From IMG/VR virus record IMGVR_UViG_3300037264_004382, positions 1 to 50,571 of that record: 50,571 bases of DNA; one strand, 5' to 3'. This stretch comes from a virus. Below the pieces are notes generated by a model. The model was not told the DNA's origin, searched no databases, and was given only the letters and a program-made list of their open reading frames with translations. Numbering within the stretch: position 1 is the stretch's first letter; every line of letters starts with the position of its first letter. The translations under genes were made by a program, and so were the position numbers. This document shows, piece after piece, positions 5,959-50,250 of this stretch.

Positions 5959-6672
5959 ATGCTTCCAGGACTAGGGCGACTTAACTCTATCGACCCTCGA
6001 AATAGCAAGTTCCCAATGGCCCCCGCTCTGGCTGGATCGACCATCCCAGCTCCTGGGTTTAAGGTTTGGGCCTTCCCCGGCACCCCCCTAGATCAAGGTG
6101 CGACCGGGACGTGTGTGGCTCAGGCGGCGGTTCACTTTATCCACGCTTCCCCCAACCCACATAAGACCTTCCTCAATCCCTTCAAGCTCTATCGAGAGAT
6201 TGTTCTCCTTGATGAGTATCCTGGGAATGACGGCGAGGCTAATGCCCCCAGTGACTCTCAACTTCAATATGGCTCTAGTGGTACGGGCGGGGCTAAGGCC
6301 CTTCATAAGAGGGGGCTCACCACTGGGTATCTATGGGCCTCCACTATGGAAGAGGCGAGAAAGTGGGTTCTTACAAGAGGCCCTGTTATGTTTGGTGGGG
6401 ACTGGTACTCCTCCATGTTCAACCCCACCTCTGAAGGGTTTGTCAAGATCACCCCAGGTTCTTACGTGGCCGGGGGTCATGAGTGGCTCCTTAGAGGGGT
6501 TAGCACCAGGAGGGGAGTAGCGTGGGGAACGAATTCTTGGGGTCCTAGCTGGAATCCCTGGAACCCTTCTAGAAAGCTACGAAGCGGTCATTTCCTAATC
6601 GACTTCGAGACCCTCGATAAACTATTTAAGGATGGCGGGGATGTAGTGTCCCCCATAGAGAGGGTGGGCTAA
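5959..6672 (+). CDS. Papain-like (C1) cysteine peptidase
   Basis: 237 residues, ATG after AGAAGGGA. DQGATGTCVAQA gives the oxyanion Gln (Q46) and catalytic Cys (C52). GGHEWLLRGV supplies the His (H174). GTNSWGPSW supplies the Asn (N192), and GHFLIDFETL follows as the last strands. Order and spacing match C1 peptidases, and all four key residues are present, so it is probably active. No signal peptide or propeptide is evident. Its place next to a holin-like gene and just before the terminase region could mean a lysis or host-takeover role; a maturation protease for the virion is another option. The next gene starts within its stop (TAATG), so they are coupled. Confidence 0.8.
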   Translation: MLPGLGRLNSIDPRNSKFPMAPALAGSTIPAPGFKVWAFPGTPLDQGATGTCVAQAAVHFIHASPNPHKTFLNPFKLYREIVLLDEYPGNDGEANAPSDSQLQYGSSGTGGAKALHKRGLTTGYLWASTMEEARKWVLTRGPVMFGGDWYSSMFNPTSEGFVKITPGSYVAGGHEWLLRGVSTRRGVAWGTNSWGPSWNPWNPSRKLRSGHFLIDFETLDKLFKDGGDVVSPIERVG

Positions 6673-6812
6673 TGAGTTTGTGGGGTAAGATCCGAGGGCT
6701 TCTCGGGAAGATTACTGATATTTTGGTTGCTGGTAGAAGCGCTGGACTTTGGAACGAAAAACCGGGGACCGGCAACGACAAGATTACAAGAGATAACTTT
6801 AGGAATAGATAA
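6672..6812 (+). CDS. 46-residue hypothetical protein
   Basis: ATG at 6672 shares a base with the peptidase stop (TAATG), typical translational coupling. The first part is an amphipathic helix (LWGKIRGLLGKITDILVAG), followed by a polar, Asn/Arg-rich tail. It could associate with membrane. It belongs to the cluster peptidase, this gene, holin-like protein. Confidence 0.5.
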   Translation: MSLWGKIRGLLGKITDILVAGRSAGLWNEKPGTGNDKITRDNFRNR

Positions 6813-6831
6813 AAGGGAGTAAATAGAAAAC

Positions 6832-7053
6832 ATGGATTACAAGGTTACGCTACTCAAGGCCCTAAAGGCCATGGTGTTTGTCCTAGTAGGGTCGGCGGTT
6901 ACGGCCCTTGCTAGTGCGGAGATGGCAGCCCCTATCGTCGAGGCTGCCGGGGGGATCCCCTTTGTTGGTGGATTGGTCTCTTCATTGGCCGTCGCTGGTC
7001 TTACTGCTCTAGCAGTGGCCCTTGACAACTGGCGCAAGAATTATTTCAAGTAA
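6832..7053 (+). CDS. Holin-like small membrane protein
   Basis: 73 residues, ATG with GGGAG upstream. Two hydrophobic segments (MVFVLVGSAVTALASA and IPFVGGLVSSLAVAGLTALAVAL) are separated by a short turn, and the C-terminus is charged (DNWRKNYFK). Length, two spans and the basic end are typical of class II holins or phage membrane proteins. With the papain-like peptidase two genes upstream it may form a lysis pair, but no classical endolysin is adjacent, so the assignment is by topology only. Confidence 0.6.
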   Translation: MDYKVTLLKALKAMVFVLVGSAVTALASAEMAAPIVEAAGGIPFVGGLVSSLAVAGLTALAVALDNWRKNYFK

Positions 7054-36407: not shown

Positions 36408-39400
36408 ATGGGTCAGATCACCGTCACTGGAAAGGATGGCGGGGTCCAAACTTTTGACTGGGCCTCTCCACAACCACCTACTATCGAGGAGGTCGAAAAG
36501 CTCATAGCAGGTGGGCAGGGTGGATACTCCTTTCTAGAGCAGCTAGGTGGGGCTGCTAACTATGCGATGGACAATAAGTGGGAGGTGGCCAAGGGGGCGT
36601 GGGATGCCGGAAAGAGTATGCTCTCAGCCCCCTTCGAGATGGGGGCGATTCCCCTTTCAGCAGCAGGACATGCAGGACTCTCAGCAGTGGGGATACCTGG
36701 TGAGTCCTATGGAGAGCAGGTAGAAAATCTACCTCCTGGTCTTCTAGAGTCTGCTGGTAAGATTCTTACAGGGCCAGCCGGATACGCATTTCCAAATGTA
36801 GCTAAGGGACTGGGAAAGTATGCAATGAACCAGCTCCCCTATGCACCTGCTCTCCTTCTTGGCGGTGGTCCTAAAATAGCAGCCAAGGCAATGGCTACTT
36901 TCTTTGCAGTCACTGGTATCGAGGCTGGGTCAGAACAAGGTCAGGCAGCTTGGGCAAACTTCGAGAAAGAGGGGCTCACCCCCACCACCCAGGATATGAT
37001 AGGACAAGCTCTTGGCGGCTCCGCGATGGGGGCAGCGGGGGTGGCAGGACTGAGGCAGGCCTTTCAGAAAAAAAGGAAGCCGATTACCCCTGTAGTAGCC
37101 ACTCCTGAGGAGGTAACCACCCCCAATCAACTAGTCGATGAAATAGAGTTTACTCCACCTAAAGTCCCCATAGAGAAGCAAATTCAAGAGAGATTTGACA
37201 GGGAGCTTAGTAAGAAGGGGGAACTTAGTAAGAAGGACCCACTTCCTGATCTTCCAGAAGAGTTTACTGGCTCTGAGACCCTTTCCTCTAAGACTCCTAC
37301 ACCTGCTCTTCCTTTCTTCAGGGGGATCATAGACAGGCTTACTGGGAATCAAGTGGAAAAGGCTCTCAAAGAATTTGCCGATAGCCCCGACGCAGCTATT
37401 ATAACAGCATGGCAAAGGAGTGTTGCTTGGAGAATCCAGCAAACTCTGGAAGCCTCTGGGTTGTTGGTGGGTCAGCAGGGTACAAGACTCAGGGCCAGTA
37501 AACATGAACTTGAGTATAAGGCTCGAACATATGCCTACACTCGGGGAGTGAAAGTTAAATACAACCCCATTACCATCTTCGCTGAAATGTACAGAGATGC
37601 GACATCATTGAACACTAGACAAGTGGACAGTCATGGCCGTGTATCCTCGACTAGTGGTGCAAAGCTTCCTGCAAACTACTTTGAAGGAGTCTGGGCAACC
37701 AAAGAAGCCTTCATTAGTGACTTCATTCATAGAAACATCGCCGTAGTCCTGCATGAGATGGTCCACGTTGCCGATCATAAGACCGCGCACGATATGACTG
37801 GAGGGGGCGACCGCTTTGCCCAACTTCGCAGCCGCTTTGAGAGTGTAATAAAGTCAGACATCTATGATAGAATGGTCAAGGATGCACATGACCTTGGGAT
37901 TGGGGAAATATTTGAGGAGGTTAGAAGTGTTACCAGAAAGGTCGAACCAGTTGGATCCAAGTATCTTGATCGCCTATTTGAAGGGACTGAAGAACTCCCC
38001 GCAAGTGGCAAAGGACCTCGCCATGTTAGAGAAGGAGTACCCACTCCAATTGAGGTCGGAAGAGGAGATGACTCCGCTGTATTAGCTAGTAAGTTACCAC
38101 CTGAAGAGAAACCTCTGGGGGGAAATCGAGAGAGCCTTGAAATGGGTGAAGCTCCCCCCACTAAGAAACCCCCCCACGTAGAGAGAGAGGGACCATTTTC
38201 TGAAACCTCCAATAGCGAGCTTGAGGCTCAGAAGCAGCTTTTCCTCGGCCAGGTGGCAAAAGGCCACACCGAGGGTGGGTCGGCGGATGCCATTTCTAGA
38301 ATAAGGGAAGAGCAGGCTATTAGAGCGGCTGAAGCCTTGGGTGGTGGGGTTACACAGGAGCGAGCCCTTAACATCATAGATGGTGTAATAGCAGGTAGGA
38401 TTGACTATACCTACAAGGCAATAAAAGAGGCTGCACTGACCCTCACCGGCAGGGCGCAAAAGGGTCCCCGCACCCAGCGAATAATCAATGCAGTAATCGC
38501 CGATCTCGAAACTAGAGGGAAGAAAATAGGTGGTAACCCCGAAGAGGGGTCTATCAGCCTTCAGGCCATCACCGCTCCTATCAGGGCAGTAGGGTCTTAT
38601 GGTAGGGCTCTTGTCACTACCCCAGGCGAGACTCTCCGCTCCACTGAACAGACCATGAAGACCATCGACCTTGCCTCCAGGGCTTCCCAACTAAAGACCA
38701 CACTCAACAATATCTTGTATAGTAAAATTCTCTCTACACAAGAGCTAGTGGCGGATGTCTTTAAGTCGGGCCTTGGTAACAAAGAGGCTAAGAGTAGGAT
38801 GGGAGCTAGGGGAAAGTTGTGGAACATCCTGGACAAGAAGTCCACTATTGATCTCGTTTCCCTTTTCGGAGATAGCCTTGAGGCGTTGAATCCATCACTG
38901 GCGGGAAAGCTTGCAAAGGGCGGGACCTCCATGGAAGTGGGGGCTCTTCAGGAAATTACTAGACAAAACCTTTCAAAGGGAAACCAGGAGAGACTCTGGC
39001 ATCTTACCGGAACTGGGACAAAAACTGGTGGCAATCTTACCTCAACTGAGAGAGTCTCCCAGAAGCTCATGATGGCCTCTCTTATCCATGATAGAGTGTC
39101 GAGGGTTGCCCAGATCTACCTACACTTAAAGCCCTTCATGGATAGGGTGGGGGTTCACTCCTTTGAGGAGCTTAAGACATTAGCCACCCAACAGAAAGGC
39201 AACCTCGACTTTGAAAGTGCCCTCCAAGATGCAGTGAGCGATTCCTCGAATATTGCCCTGAGACGCTCCTACGCAGCACAGGCTCCTACTAAGTGGATGA
39301 AGAAGGGGATCGAATTCCTCGATAGGCTCCCACTTGCCTGGATTGCCATGAAGTACAATAATGCCACCTTCGCCAATGGAATGATGGGACTTCTTGAGAG

Positions 39401-40748
39401 CATTCCACTTCTCGATAAGGTGCCTGTGGCTAAGTTCCTGAACCCCAGAATGGAGATGGCTAAGGAAAAGCCAAGGCTAGTGAAGGCCCTTCTCGGTGCT
39501 GCTAAAGATCTTAAGGTGGCCGAAGCTAAGACAGACCAAACTCGCCTTGACGTAAAGGCTGGAACAGCGACTAGGGCAGACCTAACAAGCGCTACAATCA
39601 CCGAGACATCTGCAAGAAAGGCCCATAAAGAGCTAAAAGGCTCCCTAAAGGAAATGCGAGAAAGGGGGGTAGTGCCAACCACTGAGCTTAACAACTTCAT
39701 GGCCACTTCTGCTATGTTGTTCGGCGCGGGACTGGCCTATAGGGATTGGAAGATCAAGAAGGATGGTGGGAAGGATACTGGAGAGGATTGGTTCCGGCCC
39801 AAGGTCATGGATGGAAGGTTCGACCTGCGCGCCGCCGCTGGCCCCTTTGGCTGGGCGATGATGCTTGGCGATGTGGTTGCCAGAAAGATCCACAAATCCG
39901 ATAAGTATGAAAGCTATCCAGGATTCAGCAACCTAGCCCAGGAAGCTGAGGCCGCTTCTGGCTCCCGCTTTGGCGGGTACACCCCCTCAGACCTCTGGAA
40001 CTCTATCAACTCTACCATTCAGGAAGGATCTTTTAAGGCAGGGGTAACAAAGCTCTCCCATGAAATTGGAAAGGGCTTTACCATGGGTGGGCCACTTATG
40101 GATCTTGCAAGGCAACTCGCCCAGAACACCAGGATCGAGGAGTCCATTATGCGGAGGGGGGACCTTCCACAAAGGGGGGATACCTCAGTGGTAAGTGGGT
40201 TCAAGAGGGGGCTAGAGTCGAATATCCCTGGAGCTAGGTCCGAGGCAGCTCCAGCCTTTTCACCCTTCTCGGGAAACCTTAAGGGCAGAGCTGGGGTGCT
40301 TCTTGGAAGAGAGCTTGCACCTCTCGAAAGGTTTGTCGAGAAGCACTATAAAAAGGTGGGGGATGTCACTAAGTTCTTGGTGGGTCCCACAGGGGATAAA
40401 GCGTATGACGCCGATGTCTACAGTGTGATCCGAGCGGAGGTGCCTGAAAGAATCCTCCCCATCATTAGCGACCCCGCATACACCGACGACGAGAAGATCC
40501 TCTTCGTCCAGAGAGAGATGGCAAACATCCGAGATGAAGCCACTGACTTTGCCAAGGCTCAGGCGATGGAGGATGGAAGACCCCTTCCTGAAAAGGTGGC
40601 TGGCACTATCAAAGAGACAGAACGTCGAAGAAGGCTAAGGGAGGATGGTGAGGATCTGTTCCCGAAGAAGCGACCTGAAAGTGACTATAAGATGAACAAG
40701 TTAGAGAAGGAAGACCTTACTGGCTATGTAATGGAGGAGGCTCCCTAA
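36408..40748 (+). CDS. Giant internal virion protein with HExxH metallopeptidase motif
   Basis: 1446 residues. A hydrophobic region spans about 130-180 (YAPALLLGGGPKIAAKAMATF). At H449-E450-M-V-H453 lies LHEMVHVADHKT, a zincin signature, in a domain with further His/Asp. After it come long helical, charged regions (residues 680-1290) with a coiled coil (KAHKELKGSLKEMRERG) and a hydrophobic stretch (MATSAMLFGAGLAYRDWK). The C-terminus is very charged. Size, position and composition fit an ejected protein of the T7 gp16 or N4 kind; a peptidase here would act on the envelope or on other virion proteins during entry. The SD is weak, so it may be coupled to 35319-36401. Confidence 0.7.
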   Translation: MGQITVTGKDGGVQTFDWASPQPPTIEEVEKLIAGGQGGYSFLEQLGGAANYAMDNKWEVAKGAWDAGKSMLSAPFEMGAIPLSAAGHAGLSAVGIPGESYGEQVENLPPGLLESAGKILTGPAGYAFPNVAKGLGKYAMNQLPYAPALLLGGGPKIAAKAMATFFAVTGIEAGSEQGQAAWANFEKEGLTPTTQDMIGQALGGSAMGAAGVAGLRQAFQKKRKPITPVVATPEEVTTPNQLVDEIEFTPPKVPIEKQIQERFDRELSKKGELSKKDPLPDLPEEFTGSETLSSKTPTPALPFFRGIIDRLTGNQVEKALKEFADSPDAAIITAWQRSVAWRIQQTLEASGLLVGQQGTRLRASKHELEYKARTYAYTRGVKVKYNPITIFAEMYRDATSLNTRQVDSHGRVSSTSGAKLPANYFEGVWATKEAFISDFIHRNIAVVLHEMVHVADHKTAHDMTGGGDRFAQLRSRFESVIKSDIYDRMVKDAHDLGIGEIFEEVRSVTRKVEPVGSKYLDRLFEGTEELPASGKGPRHVREGVPTPIEVGRGDDSAVLASKLPPEEKPLGGNRESLEMGEAPPTKKPPHVEREGPFSETSNSELEAQKQLFLGQVAKGHTEGGSADAISRIREEQAIRAAEALGGGVTQERALNIIDGVIAGRIDYTYKAIKEAALTLTGRAQKGPRTQRIINAVIADLETRGKKIGGNPEEGSISLQAITAPIRAVGSYGRALVTTPGETLRSTEQTMKTIDLASRASQLKTTLNNILYSKILSTQELVADVFKSGLGNKEAKSRMGARGKLWNILDKKSTIDLVSLFGDSLEALNPSLAGKLAKGGTSMEVGALQEITRQNLSKGNQERLWHLTGTGTKTGGNLTSTERVSQKLMMASLIHDRVSRVAQIYLHLKPFMDRVGVHSFEELKTLATQQKGNLDFESALQDAVSDSSNIALRRSYAAQAPTKWMKKGIEFLDRLPLAWIAMKYNNATFANGMMGLLESIPLLDKVPVAKFLNPRMEMAKEKPRLVKALLGAAKDLKVAEAKTDQTRLDVKAGTATRADLTSATITETSARKAHKELKGSLKEMRERGVVPTTELNNFMATSAMLFGAGLAYRDWKIKKDGGKDTGEDWFRPKVMDGRFDLRAAAGPFGWAMMLGDVVARKIHKSDKYESYPGFSNLAQEAEAASGSRFGGYTPSDLWNSINSTIQEGSFKAGVTKLSHEIGKGFTMGGPLMDLARQLAQNTRIEESIMRRGDLPQRGDTSVVSGFKRGLESNIPGARSEAAPAFSPFSGNLKGRAGVLLGRELAPLERFVEKHYKKVGDVTKFLVGPTGDKAYDADVYSVIRAEVPERILPIISDPAYTDDEKILFVQREMANIRDEATDFAKAQAMEDGRPLPEKVAGTIKETERRRRLREDGEDLFPKKRPESDYKMNKLEKEDLTGYVMEEAP

Positions 40749-40765
40749 GGAGCCCAAGTCCTTAG
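40745..40765. terminator. Palindrome at convergent gene ends
   Basis: CTAAGGA (40745-40751) and TCCTTAG (40759-40765) pair around GCCCAAG and contain the stop codons of both converging genes. Only 7 bp and no T-tract, so a weak bidirectional terminator at best. No other terminator separates the two arms. Confidence 0.3.
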
Positions 40766-41946
40766 TGCATCTCTCCAAGCGAAATCCCCTCCTTAGCGTC
40801 GGTCTCGACCATCAACCCCCCAAGCTGCGGCCACTGTCTCTCCATCGAGGCGCGAACAATTCCACCTGCCTCTTGACCACAGCCCATCTTCACCATAGTG
40901 GTGATCGCGTCATGGGTTGGGATGAGGAGCCAGAAAATCTTCCCGTGGAGCGGGTGGTTTGACAAATCCACGAGGCACTCCCTCAGCATAGCCGCGCAAG
41001 TGCCCTGAGGGAGGCAGGAGAGGGCCTCATTAGCCTCTTTCCCGAGAACCCACTTCTCTCCCTCCTTCCTAAAGACCTCGAAGAATGAAAGGGAATAGCC
41101 AAAGGGATTAGTGAGCTTGCCCTCTGTGTGAGCCATTAGTCTAACTGTCTCCTGCCACTTCTTTACCTTAGGTGCCATCTCCTCATAGATAAGGTCGAGC
41201 CTTTTAACCTCAGCCACACTCACACCCAGATCGAGGGCCATGTTATAAATACCTTGGCCATATGACCCACCGTGAATGCGCTTCTTCGCCCTAGCCCGCA
41301 CATCATTATGATTTGCCTTGAGCCACTCGATGAATTCAGGCAGCTTGGGGTCTTGTGGGTGAATCGGTTTAGGGATAATACCATCCCTATACAGAAGGTG
41401 GCTTGCAAATATGTCATGCACCCCCTTCCTCGCGGCTTCCATGTAGAGGGGATCCTCCGCGAAGTATCCTACTAGGAGGGCTTCTATTGCTTTCCAGTCA
41501 CGCTCCTGGAAAAACCATCCCTCCTCTGGGATTATAGTCGAGCGTACTGCCTGAGCTACTTCATAAGCGACTGACCCTGGCCCCTCCCTACCCTGAGGAA
41601 TGTTCATCACATTCGGGGCCTTTGAGGCCAGTCTTCCTGTTTTTACTATAGTATATCTGGGATGAAATCTACCGTCCCTCCCTACAAAGGTATCCTTAAA
41701 GGCCCCCACCCCATCTTTTAGGTCCTTCGCCTCCTTCAGGGCCTTGAGAACGGGGTCGGTGGGGAATTTATATCGAAGGCGATTGATAGCCTCTGCATTG
41801 ACAGTGGGCCTTTTGGTTTTTCTATGCTTGGGGACTTGATAGCCTTTTAGTTTGAGGTAGGCCTGGACATCCTTGGTGGAACCAGGATTGAAGGGGAGAG
41901 GGGTGGCCCATCTTTCCACCTCCACCATCTCAGAGGAGGAGGTCAC
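40762..41946 (-). CDS. Family A DNA polymerase, polymerase domain (C-terminal part of split gene)
   Basis: 394 residues, GTG start overlapping the previous stop (GTGA). FNPGSTKDVQAYL begins the thumb/finger region. TGRLASKAPNVMNIP is the classical TGRLSSxxPNLQNIP-like motif. Motif A is RDWKAIEALL (catalytic D150). Motif B is R217-x3-K221 ... SYG230. Motif C is IPTHDAI (D346), where the usual Glu after HD is Ala. It lacks the exonuclease domain, which is in 42438-44012. Both catalytic aspartates are present, so polymerase activity is plausible. Family A phage enzymes with HDS or HDA are known to me, so the missing Glu is not proof of inactivation. Confidence 0.85.
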   Translation of the reverse strand: MTSSSEMVEVERWATPLPFNPGSTKDVQAYLKLKGYQVPKHRKTKRPTVNAEAINRLRYKFPTDPVLKALKEAKDLKDGVGAFKDTFVGRDGRFHPRYTIVKTGRLASKAPNVMNIPQGREGPGSVAYEVAQAVRSTIIPEEGWFFQERDWKAIEALLVGYFAEDPLYMEAARKGVHDIFASHLLYRDGIIPKPIHPQDPKLPEFIEWLKANHNDVRARAKKRIHGGSYGQGIYNMALDLGVSVAEVKRLDLIYEEMAPKVKKWQETVRLMAHTEGKLTNPFGYSLSFFEVFRKEGEKWVLGKEANEALSCLPQGTCAAMLRECLVDLSNHPLHGKIFWLLIPTHDAITTMVKMGCGQEAGGIVRASMERQWPQLGGLMVETDAKEGISLGEMH

Positions 41947-42098
41947 TTGGGGGCCTGATTTAGGGTAAGGGCTATGTCTGCTACTATGAGCCAGTCCTCT
42001 CGATAGAAGGCCTTGAGGAGGTCCTGCTTAAGCCCCGAGCGACCCCTATCTAGATGCTCCCTCGCTAGTCCATAGGAGACAAACTCCTCTGCGTTCAT
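41943..42098 (-). CDS. 51-residue hypothetical helical protein between polymerase halves
   Basis: ATG 42098-42096; the region upstream lacks a clear SD but it begins 5 nt after the stop of 42103-42315. The product is helical (EEFVSYGLAREHLDRGRSGL and LLKAFYREDWLIVADIALTL). Its stop overlaps the GTG of the polymerase gene. It is the last of three small ORFs in the break between the polymerase parts. Function unknown; it could support assembly of the two halves. Confidence 0.5.
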   Translation of the reverse strand: MNAEEFVSYGLAREHLDRGRSGLKQDLLKAFYREDWLIVADIALTLNQAPK

Positions 42099-42102
42099 GT
42101 CG

Positions 42103-42315
42103 CTAGGACTCTTTGACAACCTTCCCCCCTTTAGCGTCTACTAAGGTAGACACCTCCATCTTCGCATCACTTACCTGTACCATGTAGGTGCATTTGCATT
42201 TTTTACAAATCGCCCCCACATGTGGGTAACCATCGAGGATGTAGACATCCATGGCCAGCTCCGTTATTGGAACATGACCAACCTTATGACAATCAAAGCC
42301 CATGGACTTAGACAT
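42103..42315 (-). CDS. Small Cys-containing hypothetical protein between polymerase halves
   Basis: 70 residues, ATG at 42315 overlapping the end of 42308-42466. FDCHKVGH near the start and CKKCKC in the middle provide Cys and His for a zinc site, followed by a beta-like, Lys-rich C-terminus. Second of the three ORFs in the polymerase break. Not recognised. Confidence 0.55.
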   Translation of the reverse strand: MSKSMGFDCHKVGHVPITELAMDVYILDGYPHVGAICKKCKCTYMVQVSDAKMEVSTLVDAKGGKVVKES

Positions 42316-42466
42316 ACTTGGTCACCTTAATCATCTCCGCCTCTTTACCCCCAACAGAGCAGTGGGACAACTTGTTAGGACTCTGGTGTAGATAGAGGAG
42401 CCCTTTTACCTTCTCTTCTCCAACATACTCGATAATCTCATAGCATACTGGGCACTTTAGGATCAT
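42308..42466 (-). CDS. 52-residue zinc-ribbon-like protein overlapping the polymerase N-terminal gene
   Basis: ATG at 42466-42464 with AAGGAAGAGGA just upstream, an excellent SD inside the C-terminal codons of 42438-44012. CPVCYEIIEYVG and LLYLHQSPNKLSHCSVG supply CxxC, His and Cys. First of the three small ORFs in the polymerase break. Overlap of 29 nt with the upstream gene suggests coupled translation. Confidence 0.55.
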   Translation of the reverse strand: MILKCPVCYEIIEYVGEEKVKGLLYLHQSPNKLSHCSVGGKEAEMIKVTKYV

Positions 42467-44012
42467 TCCTCTTCCTTTCCTTTTTCACCTTAGGGTGACA
42501 CTCACACTTGAAGGACTTAGGGCGGGCCTTAGTGTGAGCGCAGACACAAGCAACCAACCCCTTTTCATAATCACCACACGTGAAACAATGCTTATGCTTC
42601 ACCTTCTCCATGACCTTCACCTTCACCATGGTGTTCACATCAAGGCCCCTCTTTATTAGTGTCTCTTCGGAGAGCTTATAGACCTTGAGCTTTCTCGCCT
42701 TGAGTGGTATAAGAGGCGCAAGCTCCGCGAGCTTTTCCTGATACCTCGCCTCAAACCTCCCCCTTGCCTCCACTCGCTTTTCCTGACTCACTTGGATGCC
42801 CCTTCTAGTCATTGCCTTGAGCACTTGGGTTAGCTGAATGAAGTGCTTATCAAAGACCCCCCATCGGCCCTGCTCTTCTAAAACTTTCTTGGTTCTAGCC
42901 AGAACTCGCCACAGTACATCACTGTCGGCCGCGCTGTACCACTCTGGCTCCGACTTGCTCGATAGCTTCCACGCTGGCATATCTGGACAGTCAAAGGTGG
43001 CTGCGTATTTGAGTCCCATTGGCAGGGCCGGTTCCCTGAAGTGCCAAGCATCCATTCCGTCGATGAGTGGTCCATTTATCTCACACCCATTCGCTTCTAG
43101 ACGGGGGCAGTCGAAGTGTTGGTTCCAGACGGCTTTCTCCCCTGAAGAAGCCAGTGCAAGACGTGCATAGTCTGAGAAAGGGGGGCACCATGGAAAGGTA
43201 ATCGCCTCTCCAGAACAGTACGAAAACGAGATTCTATTGATCGTGTAGGAAGGGTCATCTTCTAGATTTATCTCCTCGACCTCAGGATCTATGAGGTCAT
43301 CCTTGAACATACTAGAATGGGGGGTCTCGATATCGAATGCGAGAGTTATTGTGGGGTCTTTCTTTAGGGTCTCTAGGTATTCTTGCACCCACTTCTCCAC
43401 CTCCATGGGGGAGGGCCGGAGGATGTAATGCTTTTCTAGGACAGGCACCCCGCAGCGTGCTACATATAGGGCTCGCTTGAGATCATTCTGCCACACCCTG
43501 GCAAGGTGAAAATTGCCCCTCATAATATAGGAAGGGTGGTAAGTGGGGATCACCGGTCCCCACTTGCTCTGAAAAATGTAGCCCCTCAGCTTCTCAATTC
43601 CCCACTCACCAGTGAACCACCTTAAAGGTTGGTTCCCCAGTGTGAGAATGACCTTCGGCTTCCATCTTTCGAGGAGTCCCTCAAGGTGTGGTCTACAGTG
43701 GTTAATGGCCCCAAGCTCATAGGGTGCTCCGGTGAGGTGGTTATCAGGGGGTCGGCAGGAGAGGACATTGGCGAGGGCGAACTGGCTCCTCTCAAGGAGG
43801 AATCCCGTGTCTGGGTCCCTTGTTCTTTCGAGCATCCTGGTAAAGACCTTACCAGCGCCTCCCACGAGTATGTCCCCAGCCGCCGCCTCCTCCTCTCCGA
43901 GGGCCTCCGCGACAATAACAACCCCAAGCTTAGGGTCGCCACGGCCCACAACATAACCTGTAGGCTTATAAGAAATAAGTGGGCAAGTCTTGCAAAGAAG
44001 TCCACTAGACAA
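42438..44012 (-). CDS. Uracil-DNA glycosylase/3'-5' exonuclease fusion (N-terminal part of split family A polymerase)
   Basis: 524 residues, TTG start. Residues 1-180 are a family 4-like UDG: C7, C10, C86 and C106 match the four 4Fe-4S ligands, EALGEEEAAAGDILVGGAG the first active-site block, TYHPSYIMRG the last. Residues 222-375 are a DnaQ-like exonuclease: DIE (D227, E229), NQHFD (N297, D301) and YSAAD (Y359, D363). Residues 376-470 hold the start of the polymerase region, with AMTRRGIQVS. The tail (C476, C479, C489, C491, C503, C505) is a zinc-ribbon-like insert. UDG-polymerase fusions are known for SPO1-type phages; here the polymerase core is on a separate gene. Confidence 0.82.
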   Translation of the reverse strand: MSSGLLCKTCPLISYKPTGYVVGRGDPKLGVVIVAEALGEEEAAAGDILVGGAGKVFTRMLERTRDPDTGFLLERSQFALANVLSCRPPDNHLTGAPYELGAINHCRPHLEGLLERWKPKVILTLGNQPLRWFTGEWGIEKLRGYIFQSKWGPVIPTYHPSYIMRGNFHLARVWQNDLKRALYVARCGVPVLEKHYILRPSPMEVEKWVQEYLETLKKDPTITLAFDIETPHSSMFKDDLIDPEVEEINLEDDPSYTINRISFSYCSGEAITFPWCPPFSDYARLALASSGEKAVWNQHFDCPRLEANGCEINGPLIDGMDAWHFREPALPMGLKYAATFDCPDMPAWKLSSKSEPEWYSAADSDVLWRVLARTKKVLEEQGRWGVFDKHFIQLTQVLKAMTRRGIQVSQEKRVEARGRFEARYQEKLAELAPLIPLKARKLKVYKLSEETLIKRGLDVNTMVKVKVMEKVKHKHCFTCGDYEKGLVACVCAHTKARPKSFKCECHPKVKKERKRNDPKVPSML

Positions 44013-44089: not shown

Positions 44090-44521
44090 TTAGTTAGTCC
44101 TACTGGCTAGATAAAGCGTCGCACAGCGATTTGCGTCCGCCTCCAATAAGTGTCTCCTTCCAGGTGTCAAATCAATGTGGCTCTTTAGGTCTACAACATG
44201 TCGTAAATGACAAGCCTCATGGACTGCTACCAGCCTACGAATCGGGGGTGGCACTGAGAGGAGGGCGCGCCAGTCTACCCTAACTACAAAGCACCCCTTC
44301 ATCCCAAAGATGGTAAGGGCCAGAGCCCTTTCGCCAGAAACCGATAACCCAAGGTCTGATATATCCAACACTACGCATGTGCCAGGAGCAGTGACAGCCT
44401 GCACCTCGAAGTAGTCCTCCTTAAATTGCTCAACCACCTCATTATAAGCCGCGCCTTTCGACTCCATTTTCATCCATCCAGGATTAACCTGAAGCAGTAG
44501 CATCAAAACTAAAGCTTGCAA
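44090..44521 (-). CDS. Secreted-type HExxH metalloprotein
   Basis: 143 residues. TTG at 44521 is supported by AAGGAG 6 nt upstream and overlaps the end of 44509-45372. The first 14 residues (QALVLMLLLQVNPG) resemble a short signal sequence. VAVHEACHLRHVVD contains HExxH (H101, E102, H105), and LLEADANRCA about 25 residues on provides E or D as third ligand, the gluzincin-like arrangement. Likely a small zinc peptidase acting at or outside the inner membrane. Family not named. Confidence 0.6.
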   Translation of the reverse strand: MQALVLMLLLQVNPGWMKMESKGAAYNEVVEQFKEDYFEVQAVTAPGTCVVLDISDLGLSVSGERALALTIFGMKGCFVVRVDWRALLSVPPPIRRLVAVHEACHLRHVVDLKSHIDLTPGRRHLLEADANRCATLYLASRTN

Positions 44522-45372
44522 GCGAGGGCTCCTTTTGTGAGAACTTCCTTAGCTAAGGCGTGGTATTCCCTAGCTCCAGACCATCTCTCCCAACTGAAGA
44601 AATTCATCCCTATCACCCTTTTGTTGTCCTTACACATATCATAAATAGGCTGTTGAAGGTCTACTAGGGTCTTGACTGCTTGCCGCCAGGGGGCTGAGTC
44701 AGGCTCTAGATAGGGACCCTGCCAGCGCCTTATGTCAGGGTGGCCAATACCCCTCCACTCATAATTTCTAGAGTATGCCATTGGTATTACTACCGCCAAC
44801 TTGCGTGCCCTTTCTACCTCCCCCAAAGCCCTGCCTAGATACTTCTCCATGGCAGCCACATTATAGGGGGAATTATGATCACCTGGGGGCTTGATATAGG
44901 CCTCGACGCCAATCCAATCCGCTGAATCATATGGTCGTATCTTGCCGGGCTTTACTGGAAACTGGTCGGTGCTATAGACAATACCAATGGGCTTTATGCC
45001 AAAGCCCGTGCGGCGCATCGACTGTCTAATAGCCCTAAGCTGAGAAGTGGTAGCACTTAGATTCCACTTTGGCTCGTCGGCACCCTCCACGAGATCGACA
45101 TTATCCTTAAATGGAAGAAGCTTCTTAAAGACATCATCAATCGGCGTTGGCCATGTCATGTCTATGTTGAGGTGGATTCTCCTTCCTGCCTCTACTGCAC
45201 GTTGACAGGAGGCCTGGAGGCCGGGGAGCCAAACCTCAGGCGGGTCGTCGGCGTTCTTCGCATATCTCCAACACCAAGCGTAATGGGTGTTTGAAGACTT
45301 TGCTATCTCCCTAGTCTTATTTCCATACCTCTGAGAGTCATCAAAGTAAAAACCAACATTCATTCTAGCCAC
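44509..45372 (-). CDS. TIM-barrel glycoside-hydrolase-like protein
   Basis: 287 residues; GTG at 45372 has GGAGG 7 nt upstream and overlaps the exonuclease stop. Strand-helix alternation with acidic or catalytic-looking ends: NVGFYFDDSQ, RRIHLNIDMTWP, VDLVEGADEPKWN (E in strand 4 position), KPIGIVYSTD, ADWIGVEAYI, LAVVIPMAYSRN, GMNFFSWERWSG. This is the layout of GH-type barrels. No signal peptide. It could cut a host polysaccharide on lysis or sit as an inactive scaffold. Family cannot be fixed by eye. Confidence 0.55.
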   Translation of the reverse strand: MARMNVGFYFDDSQRYGNKTREIAKSSNTHYAWCWRYAKNADDPPEVWLPGLQASCQRAVEAGRRIHLNIDMTWPTPIDDVFKKLLPFKDNVDLVEGADEPKWNLSATTSQLRAIRQSMRRTGFGIKPIGIVYSTDQFPVKPGKIRPYDSADWIGVEAYIKPPGDHNSPYNVAAMEKYLGRALGEVERARKLAVVIPMAYSRNYEWRGIGHPDIRRWQGPYLEPDSAPWRQAVKTLVDLQQPIYDMCKDNKRVIGMNFFSWERWSGAREYHALAKEVLTKGALACKL

Positions 45373-46067
45373 TTCTCTACCTCCTTGATGGTCCTAGTAT
45401 CCCACCCAGCACAGTCTCTACACTGTACCCTTCTTTGTTGGCCCTTTAGTTTGGAGACTGCCAGTCCCCTGGATTGAAGTCTAGAAGAATTGCAAAACCT
45501 ACAATGCCCAAGGTCAAAGCCGACCCTGTGGTGAGTTCGCATGAGTGGCCGCAACCTGAGATAAAGCTCCTCCAACACGAGAACATCCGCCTCGCAGTGG
45601 TCTATTATGTACTTAATAGAGGGTCTATGCCCAGTGGCTGCACGCTTCCAAATCCTTCCCTCTACTGGTGTCTTCTCGTTGGAGAGCCCAAGAAAGTATG
45701 CGGTGTTTTGTAGGCTCTTTCGTGAGAGACGAAAGTTCGACTTCACCGTGAAGTATGGATCTTGAACAGGGATGTTAGGGGGAACCGGGAGCCCATGCTC
45801 CATTATCTTCGCCATTAGATAAGGCTTATCGAATAAGACCCCGTTGTATGCTACTGTAAGATCCGCACTTACATACACCTTGAGAAAATCCCTTACTAGT
45901 TGACGGTCATTCCACGGTTGGGTGGCAAAGACCGGGTAATCGGCTATAGAGAGAACCGTCACCACCTTTTCGCCTAGCCACTTGAACCCCACCGCTAAAA
46001 GTGTACCAAAGTCTGCGTCTAGATTTGAGGTTTCTATGTCCCATATAAGGATCCTTTTATTGATCAT
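45360..46067 (-). CDS. DnaQ/RNase H-like 3'-5' exonuclease with C-terminal zinc ribbon
   Basis: 235 residues from the ATG encoding MINKRILIWDIET, which has GGAAGGGG upstream; a longer frame from 46103 lies in the preceding gene. ILIWDIETSNLDADFG is ExoI, VAYNGVLFDKPYL is ExoII, HCEADVLVLEELY ends with the last acidic residue. CRFCNSS and CRDCAGW at the C-terminus form a zinc ribbon. Resembles YprB-type exonucleases. A second exonuclease beside the one in the split polymerase; it may serve recombination or repair. Confidence 0.75.
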   Translation of the reverse strand: MINKRILIWDIETSNLDADFGTLLAVGFKWLGEKVVTVLSIADYPVFATQPWNDRQLVRDFLKVYVSADLTVAYNGVLFDKPYLMAKIMEHGLPVPPNIPVQDPYFTVKSNFRLSRKSLQNTAYFLGLSNEKTPVEGRIWKRAATGHRPSIKYIIDHCEADVLVLEELYLRLRPLMRTHHRVGFDLGHCRFCNSSRLQSRGLAVSKLKGQQRRVQCRDCAGWDTRTIKEVEKWLE

Positions 46068-46215
46068 CAGGCCCCTTCCATGTAAGAGGGTCATCGTTAC
46101 CATCTACGAACCTGTTCTCATATGATTCGCACAGTGAACAGGTTTCACTTAGGGCAAATCCATACCCACGTTCAAAGGGATCACCACAGTTGACACACGT
46201 TCCAACTCCAGTCAT
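46057..46215 (-). CDS. 52-residue zinc-ribbon protein
   Basis: ATG at 46215-46213 with AGGAAGG 4-5 nt upstream. TCVNCGDPFERGYGFALSETCSLCESYENRF has two CxxC pairs about 20 residues apart, a classic zinc ribbon. The frame overlaps the start of the exonuclease by 11 nt. Too short for the usual gene callers, but the SD, motif and coupling support it. Confidence 0.65.
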   Translation of the reverse strand: MTGVGTCVNCGDPFERGYGFALSETCSLCESYENRFVDGNDDPLTWKGPDDQ

Positions 46216-46226
46216 GAACCTTCCTT

Positions 46227-46859
46227 TCACTTCTTTTCCTTTTTTTCCTTCTTAGGTGGGGATGGAAGACCCGTCTTTAGGGGCCAACCATAGACCGCGG
46301 ACTTCAAAATGGCCTTTCTCTCCAGAAGGAGAAGATTATCATTTAGTGAATCCCCCGCTCTCAATCGTTCAGCCATAGGGGGGAATGCCCACTGAACAGC
46401 ACCTAAAATGATACCTACTACCTCTTTCTTTTTATTCCAGATAGGACTCCCACTAGACCCGGGATAGACCCATCCATCTATGACGAGGAAGCCCTCTAGG
46501 TTTTCACCTAAGTATCTACCTACTATGGTAGTGGTTACTCCTTTGTCTACCATACCCTTGTAGTAAAGCTCTTCAGTCTCCTCTGGCTTGTCTCTACTTA
46601 TCTTCACCCTATGGCTAAAGGGGATCTCCTCTTCTGTTTCTGTGTTGAAGAGAGCGAGATCCCTTTTTGTGTCTACCCACTGCCTCTTGGCAGAGTGCCT
46701 TTCCCTATCTATCTCGTATGTACAAGTTCCAGTTGAGCTAAGATGGGCAACTGTAAGTAGGACCTTGGGGTAGGGTGAAAAGGCCCAACCACTTTTGCCA
46801 TCACAGGAAAAGGGGAGGGCTCCCTGGGTTAGACTCACGACAAGTAGAATGGCCAACAT
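46227..46859 (-). CDS. Trypsin-like serine protease with signal peptide
   Basis: 210 residues, ATG with AAGAGG. LAILLVVSLTQGALPFSC is a signal peptide. LLTVAHL gives catalytic His (H39), KRDLALF gives Asp (D67), and YPGSSGSPI gives Ser (S136) in GxSG context, followed by VVGIILGAV. The chymotrypsin-fold triad is complete in the right order, so it should be active after export to the periplasm or outside. The C-terminus is Lys-rich. Exported proteases of this fold are unusual on phages. It might degrade host envelope proteins or protect progeny. Confidence 0.75.
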   Translation of the reverse strand: MLAILLVVSLTQGALPFSCDGKSGWAFSPYPKVLLTVAHLSSTGTCTYEIDRERHSAKRQWVDTKRDLALFNTETEEEIPFSHRVKISRDKPEETEELYYKGMVDKGVTTTIVGRYLGENLEGFLVIDGWVYPGSSGSPIWNKKKEVVGIILGAVQWAFPPMAERLRAGDSLNDNLLLLERKAILKSAVYGWPLKTGLPSPPKKEKKEKK

Positions 46860-46870
46860 TTTAATACCTC

Positions 46871-46939
46871 TTAATACCTAAGCTTTCTATCTTCCTCCAC
46901 GAAAAGGAGGAAGACCAGAACTATAAAAAGGGCGATCAA
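46871..46939 (-). CDS. 22-residue transmembrane peptide
   Basis: TTG at 46939-46937 overlaps the stop of 46936-47394 (TTGA). IALFIVLVFLLFVEEDRKLR is a single span with a charged tail. The stop is followed by the SD of the protease gene. An 8-bp palindrome (CTTCCTCC/GGAGGAAG, 46891-46913) lies within it. Plausible by coupling and composition; no homology possible at this length. Confidence 0.35.
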   Translation of the reverse strand: MIALFIVLVFLLFVEEDRKLRY

Positions 46940-47394
46940 TCGAGATGGATGTCATTTAGAGTAGGATGATGCTTCTCGAAGTACATAAGGGCAAGAAGAT
47001 GAAAGCAGGCGTGAGCAAGGTGGGAAAGGCCGGACTCTTTATCCTTAGACTCTCCCGAGGCCCAGAGGGCGAGGTGCCTACCAAGAGCGCTCAGGCTCAG
47101 GGTCCATGAATAACCCTTCTGCCAGTTCCTAGGAGCATACTTAGTAGCCCCATATCCGTACACCTCTGCAACTTGGTTCAACTCTGCGAATGGAAGGAGC
47201 CCCCACTCGGCCTGCTTAGCACCCTTCTCTCCACCTGTAAGGGGATCCTTCATAAGAATTTCGCCCTCACCACCACTCCTTCTTCCATTTTCTAGTGTCC
47301 ATACACCTATGGAGGGTGGTGGTTCAACCCTCCGCAATTCTTCTTTCCTGTTTGCCGCACAGACAGGACAATCAGTGACGTTGCAGTCTTCCAT
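46936..47394 (-). CDS. dATP/dGTP diphosphohydrolase-type protein (DUF5664-like)
   Basis: 152 residues with a strong SD (AGGGGG) before the ATG. KGAKQAEWGLLPF, YGYGATKYAPRNWQKGYSW, SALGRHLALWASGE, KDKESGLSHLAHACFHLLAL fit the MazG-like phage family called dATP/dGTP diphosphohydrolase N-terminal. The family hydrolyses deoxynucleoside triphosphates and in some phages goes with diaminopurine DNA (MazZ). No PurZ or DatZ is in this window, so base substitution cannot be claimed. Two Cys pairs at the N-terminus are extra. Likely shapes the dNTP pool. Confidence 0.7.
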   Translation of the reverse strand: MEDCNVTDCPVCAANRKEELRRVEPPPSIGVWTLENGRRSGGEGEILMKDPLTGGEKGAKQAEWGLLPFAELNQVAEVYGYGATKYAPRNWQKGYSWTLSLSALGRHLALWASGESKDKESGLSHLAHACFHLLALMYFEKHHPTLNDIHLD

Positions 47395-47395
47395 T

Positions 47396-47953
47396 TTATT
47401 TGCCCCCTATCCACTTTGCAATATCCATATAACCAAACACCCTTTTGTAGGGACAAACTATGTCAAGACTCTGATTCCAGGGGCGATCTAGGAGGAGGGA
47501 GTCCGCATCAGAGTGCATACCTACATCAATGGCATTCCCTATCTTATCATCCACCATAAGAATACCCCCTAACTCTTTTATGATGACCGCCTTCTGGTTG
47601 CTAAAAACCACTTCATCCACCCCAACCACGTCAATGAGGGTCTTCTTCGCCTCTTCATCTGCCTTTGACCTCGCTGAAACCACTACAACATTAAAGCCTA
47701 GAACTTTAAGATCAGAAACAAACTCCCTTGCCCCATCATAGGGAGGAATCTCTCTTTGATAGGTGTAGGTCCAAAGCTGAGAGATGTACTCTTGTGAGAG
47801 GCCAAAGGCCTCTTCTAGATCCCAGTGCCCTATATCCCTAACCTTTACCTCTATCTTGGAGGGAAAGCGCTTGTTGATAAAGTCAATCCACACAGAGGCC
47901 ATGTCCAGTAGAACTCCATCTGCATCGAGACAAATTACTGGCTTTTTCGTCAT
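47396..47953 (-). CDS. HAD-like 5'(3')-deoxyribonucleotidase
   Basis: 185 residues from the ATG encoding MTKKPVICLDADG, preceded by GAAAGG; an upstream TTG frame overlaps the M15 gene. Motif I is LDADGVLLD (D10, D12), motif II VVVVSARS, then a Lys, and motif IV ILMVDDKIGNA. A cap-like insertion sits between I and II. Family resemblance is to the deoxyribonucleotidases that clear dNMPs. Together with the neighbouring diphosphohydrolase it may tune host nucleotide breakdown. Confidence 0.75.
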   Translation of the reverse strand: MTKKPVICLDADGVLLDMASVWIDFINKRFPSKIEVKVRDIGHWDLEEAFGLSQEYISQLWTYTYQREIPPYDGAREFVSDLKVLGFNVVVVSARSKADEEAKKTLIDVVGVDEVVFSNQKAVIIKELGGILMVDDKIGNAIDVGMHSDADSLLLDRPWNQSLDIVCPYKRVFGYMDIAKWIGGK

Positions 47954-47969
47954 CCTTTCAAATCCCCCC

Positions 47970-48293
47970 TTAAGTAGGATCAAACTCTAAGTGTATGTGT
48001 TCATTAACCCCACCCCTATCTTCTAAAAGAACATCAAACCCTAGTGGTATTAGGATGGTTTGAAGTTGAGCAAAGATGCTGTCTTTAGTGGGCTCATCTG
48101 GAAGATCCTTGGTTCTAAGATCACAGGCCAAACCCTTGTAGTGAAACGAGTTAGAGGTATGCACGCCGTCCACTACAGCAGTAACAGTAAGCACCTGCCC
48201 GTGCTCCTCCCAGATCCTCTCCGCGAAGTGGATGCCAACCAAAAGCTCCGGCTTGAGCCCTATGATACTCACACCCTTCTTACAGCTAAGCAT
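47970..48293 (-). CDS. M15-type peptidoglycan peptidase (endolysin candidate)
   Basis: 107 residues, ATG overlapping the stop of a 37-residue frame. SNSFHYKGLACDLR is the HxxGxAxD zinc motif (H51, D58), and NEHIHLEFD supplies catalytic Glu (E98) and the last His (H101). The length matches single-domain L-Ala-D-Glu or D-Ala-D-Ala peptidases used as endolysins. No signal peptide, so a holin is needed; a membrane-anchored coiled coil gene lies just upstream. Confidence 0.8.
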   Translation of the reverse strand: MLSCKKGVSIIGLKPELLVGIHFAERIWEEHGQVLTVTAVVDGVHTSNSFHYKGLACDLRTKDLPDEPTKDSIFAQLQTILIPLGFDVLLEDRGGVNEHIHLEFDPT

Positions 48294-48399
48294 ACTTTTT
48301 CTTCTTCTTTCTACTAGCCTTGACTAGATTTTTTCTAAGGCGGTCAAGCTCCTCCATCATCCTGTCTTCATTTTCTTGCTGAGTCTTACTCCGCGTCAT
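48286..48399 (-). CDS. 37-residue charged coiled-coil peptide
   Basis: ATG at 48399-48397 behind GGGGGA within the preceding gene's end. The product (RSKTQQENEDRMMEELDRL) is helical with a KKKKK tail. Overlaps both neighbours, as usual here. Belongs to the presumed lysis cluster. Confidence 0.45.
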   Translation of the reverse strand: MTRSKTQQENEDRMMEELDRLRKNLVKASRKKKKKYA

Positions 48400-48565
48400 G
48401 ACGATCCCCCAACTCCTTATTTAAGAGTGTAAGCTGTGTTACCACCCTCTCAAGGAGGGCCTCGTACTTTTTAGAGGCATCCACATTAGCCCTCCAGAGG
48501 ACCCATACACCAAAAAGGTAGACCCCCGAGGCCCCGTACTTTACTGCTAACTCTAAGATATCCAT
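48386..48565 (-). CDS. Membrane-anchored coiled coil, holin-like
   Basis: 59 residues. ILELAVKYGASGVYLFGVWVLW is one membrane span and VDASKKYEALLERVVTQLTLLNKEL is a coiled coil. This plan is the one of small holin or spanin-like proteins of the BhlA/XhlA type. It directly precedes the coiled-coil peptide and the M15 peptidase, so the three likely form a lysis cassette. Upstream ATG at 48565 follows the preceding stop by 1 nt. Confidence 0.6.
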   Translation of the reverse strand: MDILELAVKYGASGVYLFGVWVLWRANVDASKKYEALLERVVTQLTLLNKELGDRHDAE

Positions 48566-48566
48566 T

Positions 48567-48911
48567 CTAAATCACCCGGCCAAGGAGGCCCTTTCCTGTC
48601 AACTGTCTAACCGCCCTGTTCCAATCCTTATCACCATGATCAGCATTGGGTAAGACAATGTGAAGACACTCATGGGTTAATACTAGGTAGAGCCACTTTG
48701 GGAAGTCCTTGAGGGAAGTGTCTATTTCTATATGCCACATCCCGTCCTCTCCCTTCACCACGCAAGCCTCTTCATCTCTAGTATCTATCCAGTCTCCCTC
48801 TGCCCTGTGCTCTATGAATCGAAAGGTGACCTTCTCAAGCTCAGGAAGCTCGGGGAGATACCTTCTCTTTATGTCTATAAAGATCCCCTTCGGGCTCTTA
48901 GGGCGTCTCAA
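48567..48911 (-). CDS. SprT-like HExxH metallopeptidase
   Basis: 114 residues, TTG at 48911 supported by GAGGG 8 nt before and overlap with the previous gene. YLVLTHECLHIVLPNADHGDKDWNRAVRQ holds HExxH (H80, E81, H84) and then a DHG (H92) and W, the order seen in SprT-like proteases. No signal peptide. Probably cytosolic; SprT-like enzymes act on DNA-bound proteins, but other small zincins share this motif, so the role is open. Confidence 0.65.
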   Translation of the reverse strand: MRRPKSPKGIFIDIKRRYLPELPELEKVTFRFIEHRAEGDWIDTRDEEACVVKGEDGMWHIEIDTSLKDFPKWLYLVLTHECLHIVLPNADHGDKDWNRAVRQLTGKGLLGRVI

Positions 48912-49836
48912 TGATTTCCCTCATGAAGCGGAGGGCCTTCTCAAACTCCACATCGCCCATAGAGTGTCTCCAAAGCATAAAGGCTACTCCATTTCTTTTG
49001 TTTGCAATGGCCAGTTCGCGCCATCTAGAAGCGGTAAGGGGAGGGTTGGGGTTGTATTCATTGACAATAGTAGGTCCAGCTCCCGGACTAACCACATACA
49101 CCCCATGCCTTGCAATGTAGTCCATTTCAGACTCCAGGAATGGGTCGTGTGAGTTCGTCCCGATAGGCGGGGCCACCCTTCCCCGCTTCCTGTAAGCCTC
49201 TTTAATAGCATCCCTAATCCCCTCTTCCCACTCAGGGACTAGCATCCCCTGACAGTCAAAGGTTTCATTCCCTATCTGAAAAAACACATTAGGATAGGGT
49301 CCGAGGGCCTCCACCAGGGTGTCAACCCAGTCGATATGTCTTTTCTGGGGTGGACCGGAGAGGACCTTGCAAGAATCATTCCACCAGCTTAGATGCGGCC
49401 GTTCAAGGACCCACGCATCTACCGTATCCACCTCCACGTAGATCCCCCTCTCCATCGCCATCTTCACTGTCTCTATGAGAAGGGGTATGATCCTGTCCGC
49501 TGCGTATTGTCTCCCCTGTGGAGCCTGCTCTGAGAAGGGTCCAGTCCTTATATGAACGTAGTTCCCCTTGTGGGCGTAGATCAAGTCTAAGAAGCTCTCG
49601 GAGGCTAACGGCCAGCCGCTCCCCCACTCTCGTGAACCACAACACCCCACCACTCCCATCAAAGGGGGTTGAAATTGTTGGCCTATAACTCGTAGAGGGG
49701 GGACCCCCCATGGGGATGGGGATGGGGATGGAGATGGGGATGGGGATGGTAAATGGGAGGGGCCACCGACTGAGGGGAAATCCTGGCATCCCATTGTTAG
49801 TGAGAGGAAGAAGAGACCTAAAAGTTTCTTTATCAT
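48898..49836 (-). CDS. TIM-barrel glycoside-hydrolase-like lipoprotein
   Basis: 312 residues. KKLLGLFFLSLTMGC is a signal peptide with lipobox-like end (C17 as the modified Cys; T at -3 is slightly off consensus). A PS repeat linker (residues 30-42) leads to a GH-A-like barrel: FFQIGNETF (E191, acid/base position) and IVNEYNP (E260, nucleophile position), with VEVDTVDAWV and VAFMLWRHS as other strands. Both catalytic Glu are present. It would be anchored on the outer face of a membrane. Possible superinfection, capsule or envelope function. Confidence 0.65.
   Translation of the reverse strand: MIKKLLGLFFLSLTMGCQDFPSVGGPSHLPSPSPSPSPSPSPWGVPPLRVIGQQFQPPLMGVVGCCGSREWGSGWPLASESFLDLIYAHKGNYVHIRTGPFSEQAPQGRQYAADRIIPLLIETVKMAMERGIYVEVDTVDAWVLERPHLSWWNDSCKVLSGPPQKRHIDWVDTLVEALGPYPNVFFQIGNETFDCQGMLVPEWEEGIRDAIKEAYRKRGRVAPPIGTNSHDPFLESEMDYIARHGVYVVSPGAGPTIVNEYNPNPPLTASRWRELAIANKRNGVAFMLWRHSMGDVEFEKALRFMREIIETP
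49710..49748. repeat. Hexanucleotide repeat encoding the PS linker
   Basis: About six units of ATGGGG (one unit ATGGAG) on the + strand, reading TCCCCA/CCCCAT on the coding strand and giving Pro-Ser pairs. Slippage here would change the linker in steps of two residues without shifting frame. Confidence 0.7.
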
Positions 49837-49884: not shown

Positions 49885-50250
49885 TTAGTAGATCCACTGT
49901 CTTGCAATCTCGCAGAGCGCCACGAATACAGCATCCTTGTCGCGCTCCAACTGGCCCAGCTTCGCGTAGGGGACTAGATCCGGGTGGATCTTGGCCTCAC
50001 GATCGTACTTCTCGCCATAGACCCATCCCATGGCGTAGTAGGCTTGCATCCAACTGCCATGAAGTTCCTCGGGTGACATCGAGCGATCCTCGCCACCCTG
50101 ACGCTCGATGACCTTGCGGAACTGAGCCTTGAATGGCTCCTCACGCTCGGCCCATTCAACGGGGATGATCGGGGCAGTTGCAGCCATTGCAGCCAGCCTA
50201 GCCCCGTTGTAGACGAACTCGGCGCGCCTTTCGACCAGCTCCGTTACCAT
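49885..50250 (-). CDS. RyR-domain protein
   Basis: 121 residues, ATG overlapping the previous stop. MQAYYAMGWVYGEKYDREAKIHPDLVPYAKLGQLERDKD is the core of the RyR domain (MGWxYGxxxD ... KxHPxLxPYxxL ... ExxKD), which phages often carry as a single small domain of unknown function. The N-terminus is helical and includes a VEWAERE segment. GC-rich, with CGC and CTC codons unlike its neighbours, suggesting separate acquisition. Confidence 0.75.
   Translation of the reverse strand: MVTELVERRAEFVYNGARLAAMAATAPIIPVEWAEREEPFKAQFRKVIERQGGEDRSMSPEELHGSWMQAYYAMGWVYGEKYDREAKIHPDLVPYAKLGQLERDKDAVFVALCEIARQWIY

Follow-up and report, generated by a model that had tools for sequence, protein, structure and literature searches.

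Hydrolase genes interleaved with nucleotide-metabolism and replication genes in the minus-strand operon of a virus genome

A single IMG/VR virus record, IMGVR_UViG_3300037264_004382, was analysed over its full length of 50,571 bases, called the window in what follows; no terminal repeat, tRNA gene or Rfam match was found in it. Virion genes, among them those for terminase, portal, major head protein and tail fibre, occupy the plus strand, and convergent with these runs a minus-strand operon, from about 50,250 to 40,762, which contains genes of nucleotide metabolism and encodes a DNA polymerase, split and bearing a uracil-DNA glycosylase domain, as well as a separate exonuclease. Judged by its head protein, the virus comes closest, among described phages, to Tunturiibacter phage Tunturi_1 and to Myxococcus phages; identity is only 23-26%, so it is remote from anything well studied. 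Scans for promoters and terminators gave signals insufficiently above chance for use.

Several other features of the genome were recorded. A RyR domain (PF02026, above cut-off) is present in a small protein encoded at the head of the operon (49885-50250). The polymerase (40762-44012) is of family A, with the uracil-DNA glycosylase domain at its N-terminus, and is split into two ORFs that are separated by a 70-aa Cys-rich ORF, the N-terminal half itself having a Cys-rich tail; a polymerase in two ORFs is also found in the Manatee Spring phage MW202554. At 1349-2355 lie overlapping repetitive ORFs with no family match, one of them Arg/Cys-rich and both with long alanine-rich stretches.

Within this operon, a first-pass annotation had described six ORFs at 44090-49836 as a dense set of exported and lytic hydrolases that may modify the envelope during infection. 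All six are present, on the minus strand and in one tightly packed operon (Table 1). Each scores best in its own coding frame, except that one reverse frame equals it in the M15 gene; 44090-44521 scores lowest, its own frame being slightly negative and still the best of the six. The ORFs, their family matches, their motifs and the conservation of the M15 residues are directly established. To call the set dense was an overstatement, since its genes alternate with genes of nucleotide metabolism and replication; the six hydrolases are not one lytic or exported module, genes for a dNTP diphosphohydrolase, a HAD nucleotidase and an exonuclease lying between them.

Table 1. Genes of the hydrolase region, in order of position in the window.
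Feature	Coordinates	Strand	Basis and remarks
HEACH-motif protein	44090..44521	-	HEACH; N-terminal hydrophobic segment; weak YgjP-like match
Protein with possible beta/alpha barrel	44509..45372	-	No signal, no profile match
DNA polymerase exonuclease subunit	45360..46103	-	PF13482, phrog_403; 53% identical homologue in contig L009
Trypsin-like serine protease	46227..46859	-	PF13365 Trypsin_2; triad H39/D67/S136; N-terminal hydrophobic segment
dATP/dGTP diphosphohydrolase N-terminal domain protein	46936..47394	-	PF18909, E 8e-30; phrog_801
HAD / NT5C-like nucleotidase	47396..47983	-	PF06941, 33.8 bits, above cut-off; not envelope related
M15-type (clan MD) peptidase, probable endolysin	47970..48293	-	Microvirus homologues; invariant active-site residues
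37-aa lysine-rich ORF	48286..48399	-	Overlaps M15 start and end of 59-aa ORF; coding-like
59-aa protein, candidate holin	48386..48565	-	One hydrophobic segment, then charged helix; coding score positive
SprT-like putative metallopeptidase	48567..48911	-	HECLH at residue 80; no signal; PF10263 below cut-off
GH5-like glycosidase lipoprotein	48898..49836	-	Weak PF00150 match; lipobox; fold matches

M15 peptidases are an established type of peptidoglycan-cutting enzyme, and 47970-48293 is firmly predicted to be of this type. It shows the pattern S-x-H-x6-D with a downstream E and H-x-H, and the motif S-x-H-[YKR]-x-G-x-A-x-D had 0 occurrences in 300 shuffles of the protein set. A tblastn search of phage and plasmid records found relatives in 15 phage records, 14 microviruses and one Microcystis phage, and S49, H51, D58, E91, H99 and H101 are invariant in an alignment of nine sequences; catalytic residues are present in the set, with conservation in relatives found for those of M15. 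A profile built from the protein and its relatives matches hedgehog N-domains, which belong to the same peptidase clan, at 3e-8. Because PF08291, the Pfam M15 model, is unmatched anywhere in the window and the microvirus branch is divergent, identity is claimed only as M15-like, clan MD.

Between the SprT-like gene and the M15 gene sit two short ORFs, of 59 and 37 aa, which had been overlooked; neither has a meaningful family match, and the 59-aa ORF neither matches PF10960 (the BhlA/UviB holin) nor has a relative among phage records. By its position and its single hydrophobic segment it is a candidate holin. Short ORFs directly upstream of M15 are placed as a holin gene is beside its endolysin gene, and a lysis pair is the most economical reading for M15; the peptidase, on which no export signal was found, is most simply an endolysin with predicted activity on peptidoglycan, and it is the one gene of the six to which the word lytic can still apply. 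A survey of microviruses reported that in dsDNA phages M15 peptidase genes have a holin gene as neighbour, and it proposed a role in lysis (PMC3394797). Together with the M15 homology, the conserved residues and the membrane and basic ORFs upstream, this survey supports the endolysin-holin reading; counting against it are the 59-aa ORF, which has neither holin family nor relative, and a rival pair elsewhere in the genome.

This rival pair, at 5959-7053, consists of a papain-like cysteine protease (phrog_16701) and, next in line, a two-segment membrane protein of 73 aa. It is conceivable, if unlikely, that lysis is carried out by these two proteins and that M15 serves in DNA entry or cell-wall turnover: the membrane ORF adjoins the protease gene, and the protease has relatives in 52 phage records, one of which is annotated 'putative lysin'. 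However, phage papain-like proteases mostly carry no annotation beyond peptidase or cysteine protease and possibly serve virion assembly, whereas M15 enzymes are well established as cutters of peptidoglycan and a membrane ORF lies upstream of this one. The 5959-7053 genes are possibly a second lysis pair or a virion-maturation protease.

The assignment of the SprT-like protein is motif-based, since its match to PF10263 (E 0.058) lies below the cut-off, and no relatives of it were found in phage records; SprT-like peptidases have been published in jumbo and T4-like phages (PMC7824862, PMC1524935). This protein and the possible barrel protein look cytoplasmic, export signals being absent in both as in M15. 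An endolysin identity was also considered for 46936-47394, which matches PHROG 2252/5033, and was rejected, since a dNTP diphosphohydrolase is indicated both by PF18909 and by phrog_801, which is the stronger PHROG match. The label carried by these PHROGs, 'endolysin; inhibits RNA polymerase', is likely an annotation trap for this gene.

HExxH motifs occur three times in the set of 56 ORFs, against 0.31 expected in shuffled proteins (1 of 300 shuffles reaches three); two of these are in the cluster, and the third belongs to a giant virion protein. The latter, a 1446-aa protein of the virion arm (36408-40748), has HEMVHVADH, with HExxH at residue 449, and a weak match to a SprT-like model; it is a third zincin candidate. 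The HEACH protein matches a YgjP-like model at E 0.018, below the cut-off, and has a candidate third ligand in LEADANRCA. Identity with M78 / ImmA-IrrE was rejected, PF06114 being without a match in the window. For the two HExxH proteins named previously, the secreted-type and the SprT-like one, the motifs are present and the Pfam matches fall below their cut-offs.

Three export signals had been reported. Just three of the 56 ORFs do have a strongly hydrophobic segment whose start lies among the first five residues, 44090-44521, 46227-46859 and 48898-49836; export is likely for the last two, as judged from their N-termini, and doubtful for the HEACH protein, which begins at a TTG codon with a good Shine-Dalgarno sequence (AAAAGGAG) and has a hydrophobic, uncharged N-terminus with no convincing cleavage site. 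Only 48898-49836, alone in the genome, combines a basic n-region and an h-region with a lipobox (N-terminus MIKKLLGLFFLSLTMGC); the lipobox, LTMG-C17, fits a Prosite-like pattern ending at residue 17 and is followed by a Ser/Pro linker. The lipoprotein is probably a GH5-like glycosidase, on the combined indications of profile and modelled fold. Its match to PF00150 (E 3.3e-4, 20.7 bits) spans the GNE motif and is below the 23.5 cut-off, so the protein is named GH5-like only; E191 (GNE, 189-191) and E260 (VNE, 258-260) are candidates, assigned by eye, for the catalytic acids that in GH5 follow strands 4 and 7 of the (beta/alpha)8 fold. A Foldseek search with a weak model (mean pLDDT 49.8) is led by GH5 enzymes, with a best E of 4e-4 and two matches at E<1e-3. 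Of the GH-like lipoprotein first described, the lipobox holds, while the GH5-led fold matches come from a weak model and the Pfam match does not reach its cut-off. No close relatives were found in phage, plasmid or GTDB scans; a virus-encoded GH5 with endomannanase activity has been published (PMC6786970).

The second likely exported protein, 46227-46859, is firmly predicted to be a trypsin-like serine protease. The complete triad reported for it was confirmed, with the serine motif GSSGSP (GxSGxP) and a match to PF13365 of 38.1 bits (cut-off 27.6) that begins at residue 23; the serine motif alone is weak, being reached in 14 of 300 shuffles, and the Pfam match supports the assignment. The protease is probably exported: its N-terminus has a hydrophobic segment, an uncharged n-region and a possible cleavage site near residue 13, this candidate signal precedes the Trypsin_2 match, and the start codon has a good Shine-Dalgarno sequence. 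A relative in the IMG/VR contig L002 shares its triad motifs and has a signal-like N-terminus.

The GH-like barrel of the first-pass annotation was not recovered. No family profile, GH or other, matches 44509-45372, and its single-sequence AF2 model (pLDDT 40) is too weak for assigning a barrel; TIM-barrel glycosidases are numerous among the fold matches of this unreliable model, but with E>=0.03 and a TM of about 0.2, and no match falls below 1e-3. BLASTP found no homology between this protein and the GH5-like one.

The same cluster was also sought in related phages, as had been suggested, and was not found. IMG/VR peptide-pattern scans, run for seven window proteins and for one alignment of two sequences, returned only L002 and L019 (trypsin-like protein, unrelated phage) and L009 (exonuclease only), the last having none of the hydrolases within the 16.7 kb examined; GTDB genome scans with two window proteins gave no matches; phage and plasmid tblastn of the cluster hydrolases apart from the HEACH protein found relatives for M15 only. 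The Tunturiibacter phage, Mx9 and the Manatee Spring phages show similarity in head, terminase and polymerase and have no such hydrolases. Since so few relatives were findable, little weight attaches to the cluster's absence elsewhere.

We regard the region, with moderate confidence, as a mixed operon that holds an M15 endolysin with its 59-aa holin candidate, cytoplasmic enzymes and two exported accessory enzymes; holin role, export, substrates and timing are what we infer. The 59-aa protein would open the inner membrane and release the signal-less M15 enzyme, which would cut peptide bonds in peptidoglycan. The SprT-like protein, HAD nucleotidase, dNTP diphosphohydrolase and exonuclease would be cytoplasmic enzymes whose targets are nucleotides, DNA or DNA-bound proteins, the SprT-like protein presumably working near replication. 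The GH5-like lipoprotein, anchored by a lipid at Cys17 and reaching outward on its Ser/Pro linker, may cut surface or nearby glycan, and the trypsin-like protease would be an accessory exported enzyme active outside the cytoplasm. This reading is supported by the interleaving of the genes, by signal-like N-termini on three proteins only, by the above-cut-off Trypsin_2 match, by the GH5-like indications and by the single SprT-like and GH5 members published in phages (PMC7824862, PMC1524935, PMC6786970); against its exported part it counts that the export and GH5 calls are below formal thresholds or sequence-predicted.

An alternative for the exported pair, which we hold to be improbable, is that lipoprotein and protease are nutrient-acquiring auxiliary enzymes that digest polymers outside the cell and leave the envelope unaltered; the GH5-like match, the endomannanase precedent and the suitability of a linker-borne lipoprotein for outward-facing work favour it, but a sub-threshold match cannot predict a substrate. 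That the enzymes jointly remodel the host envelope during infection, excluding other phages, releasing nutrients or protecting the cell, appears distinctly unlikely. Two, perhaps three, of the proteins have export-like N-termini, the sole ones in the genome, and a probable glycosidase domain is borne by one of them, the lipoprotein; however, two of the six are signal-less, M15 has a simpler role as endolysin, 44090-44521 is uncertain in both identity and location, nucleotide and replication genes lie in between, and no conserved cluster was found elsewhere, though few relatives are findable. Nothing specifically points to superinfection block, nutrient exposure or cell protection; a block exerted by the exported pair is possible and not favoured over polymer digestion or help in lysis. 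Very unlikely, too, is an exported set of GH5-like lipoprotein, trypsin-like protease and HEACH protein that would trim receptor glycans and proteins from the infected cell and so block other phages.

The mixed operon explains the apparent surplus of lytic enzymes with no need for a new system, through a probable lysis pair, cytoplasmic enzymes of DNA metabolism and an exported pair. The last is a modest lead, because a glycosidase domain carried on a phage lipoprotein could change the surface of infected cells or their surroundings. The cluster is real but was over-read, and it consists mostly of further examples of known enzyme kinds.

Among these kinds, GH5 (clan GH-A) supplies the lipoprotein's leading fold matches, GH5_18 enzymes among them; unlike members of the family, the lipoprotein is below the Pfam cut-off and has no close relative. 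The trypsin-like protein shares the triad, the GxSGxP motif and an above-cut-off domain match with Trypsin_2/S1-clan proteases, and its nearest solved structures are the Spl proteases of Staphylococcus and DegP-like proteins; it differs in having only 210 aa and no PDZ domain, and its only viral relative found is 29% identical and lies in an unrelated T4-like contig. With the SprT-like peptidases of jumbo and T4-like phages, 48567-48911 has in common HExxH, a downstream H-G..W pattern, small size and absence of a signal, whereas its Pfam match reaches only E 0.058. The M15 protein resembles the Microviridae M15 peptidases (Peptidase_M15_3 type, clan MD; PMC3394797) in length (about 105 aa) and is 32-39% identical to them, with all active-site residues invariant; it differs in its tailed-phage context and in a five-residue insertion before the final H-x-H, and, as in dsDNA phages, its gene stands beside a possible holin gene.
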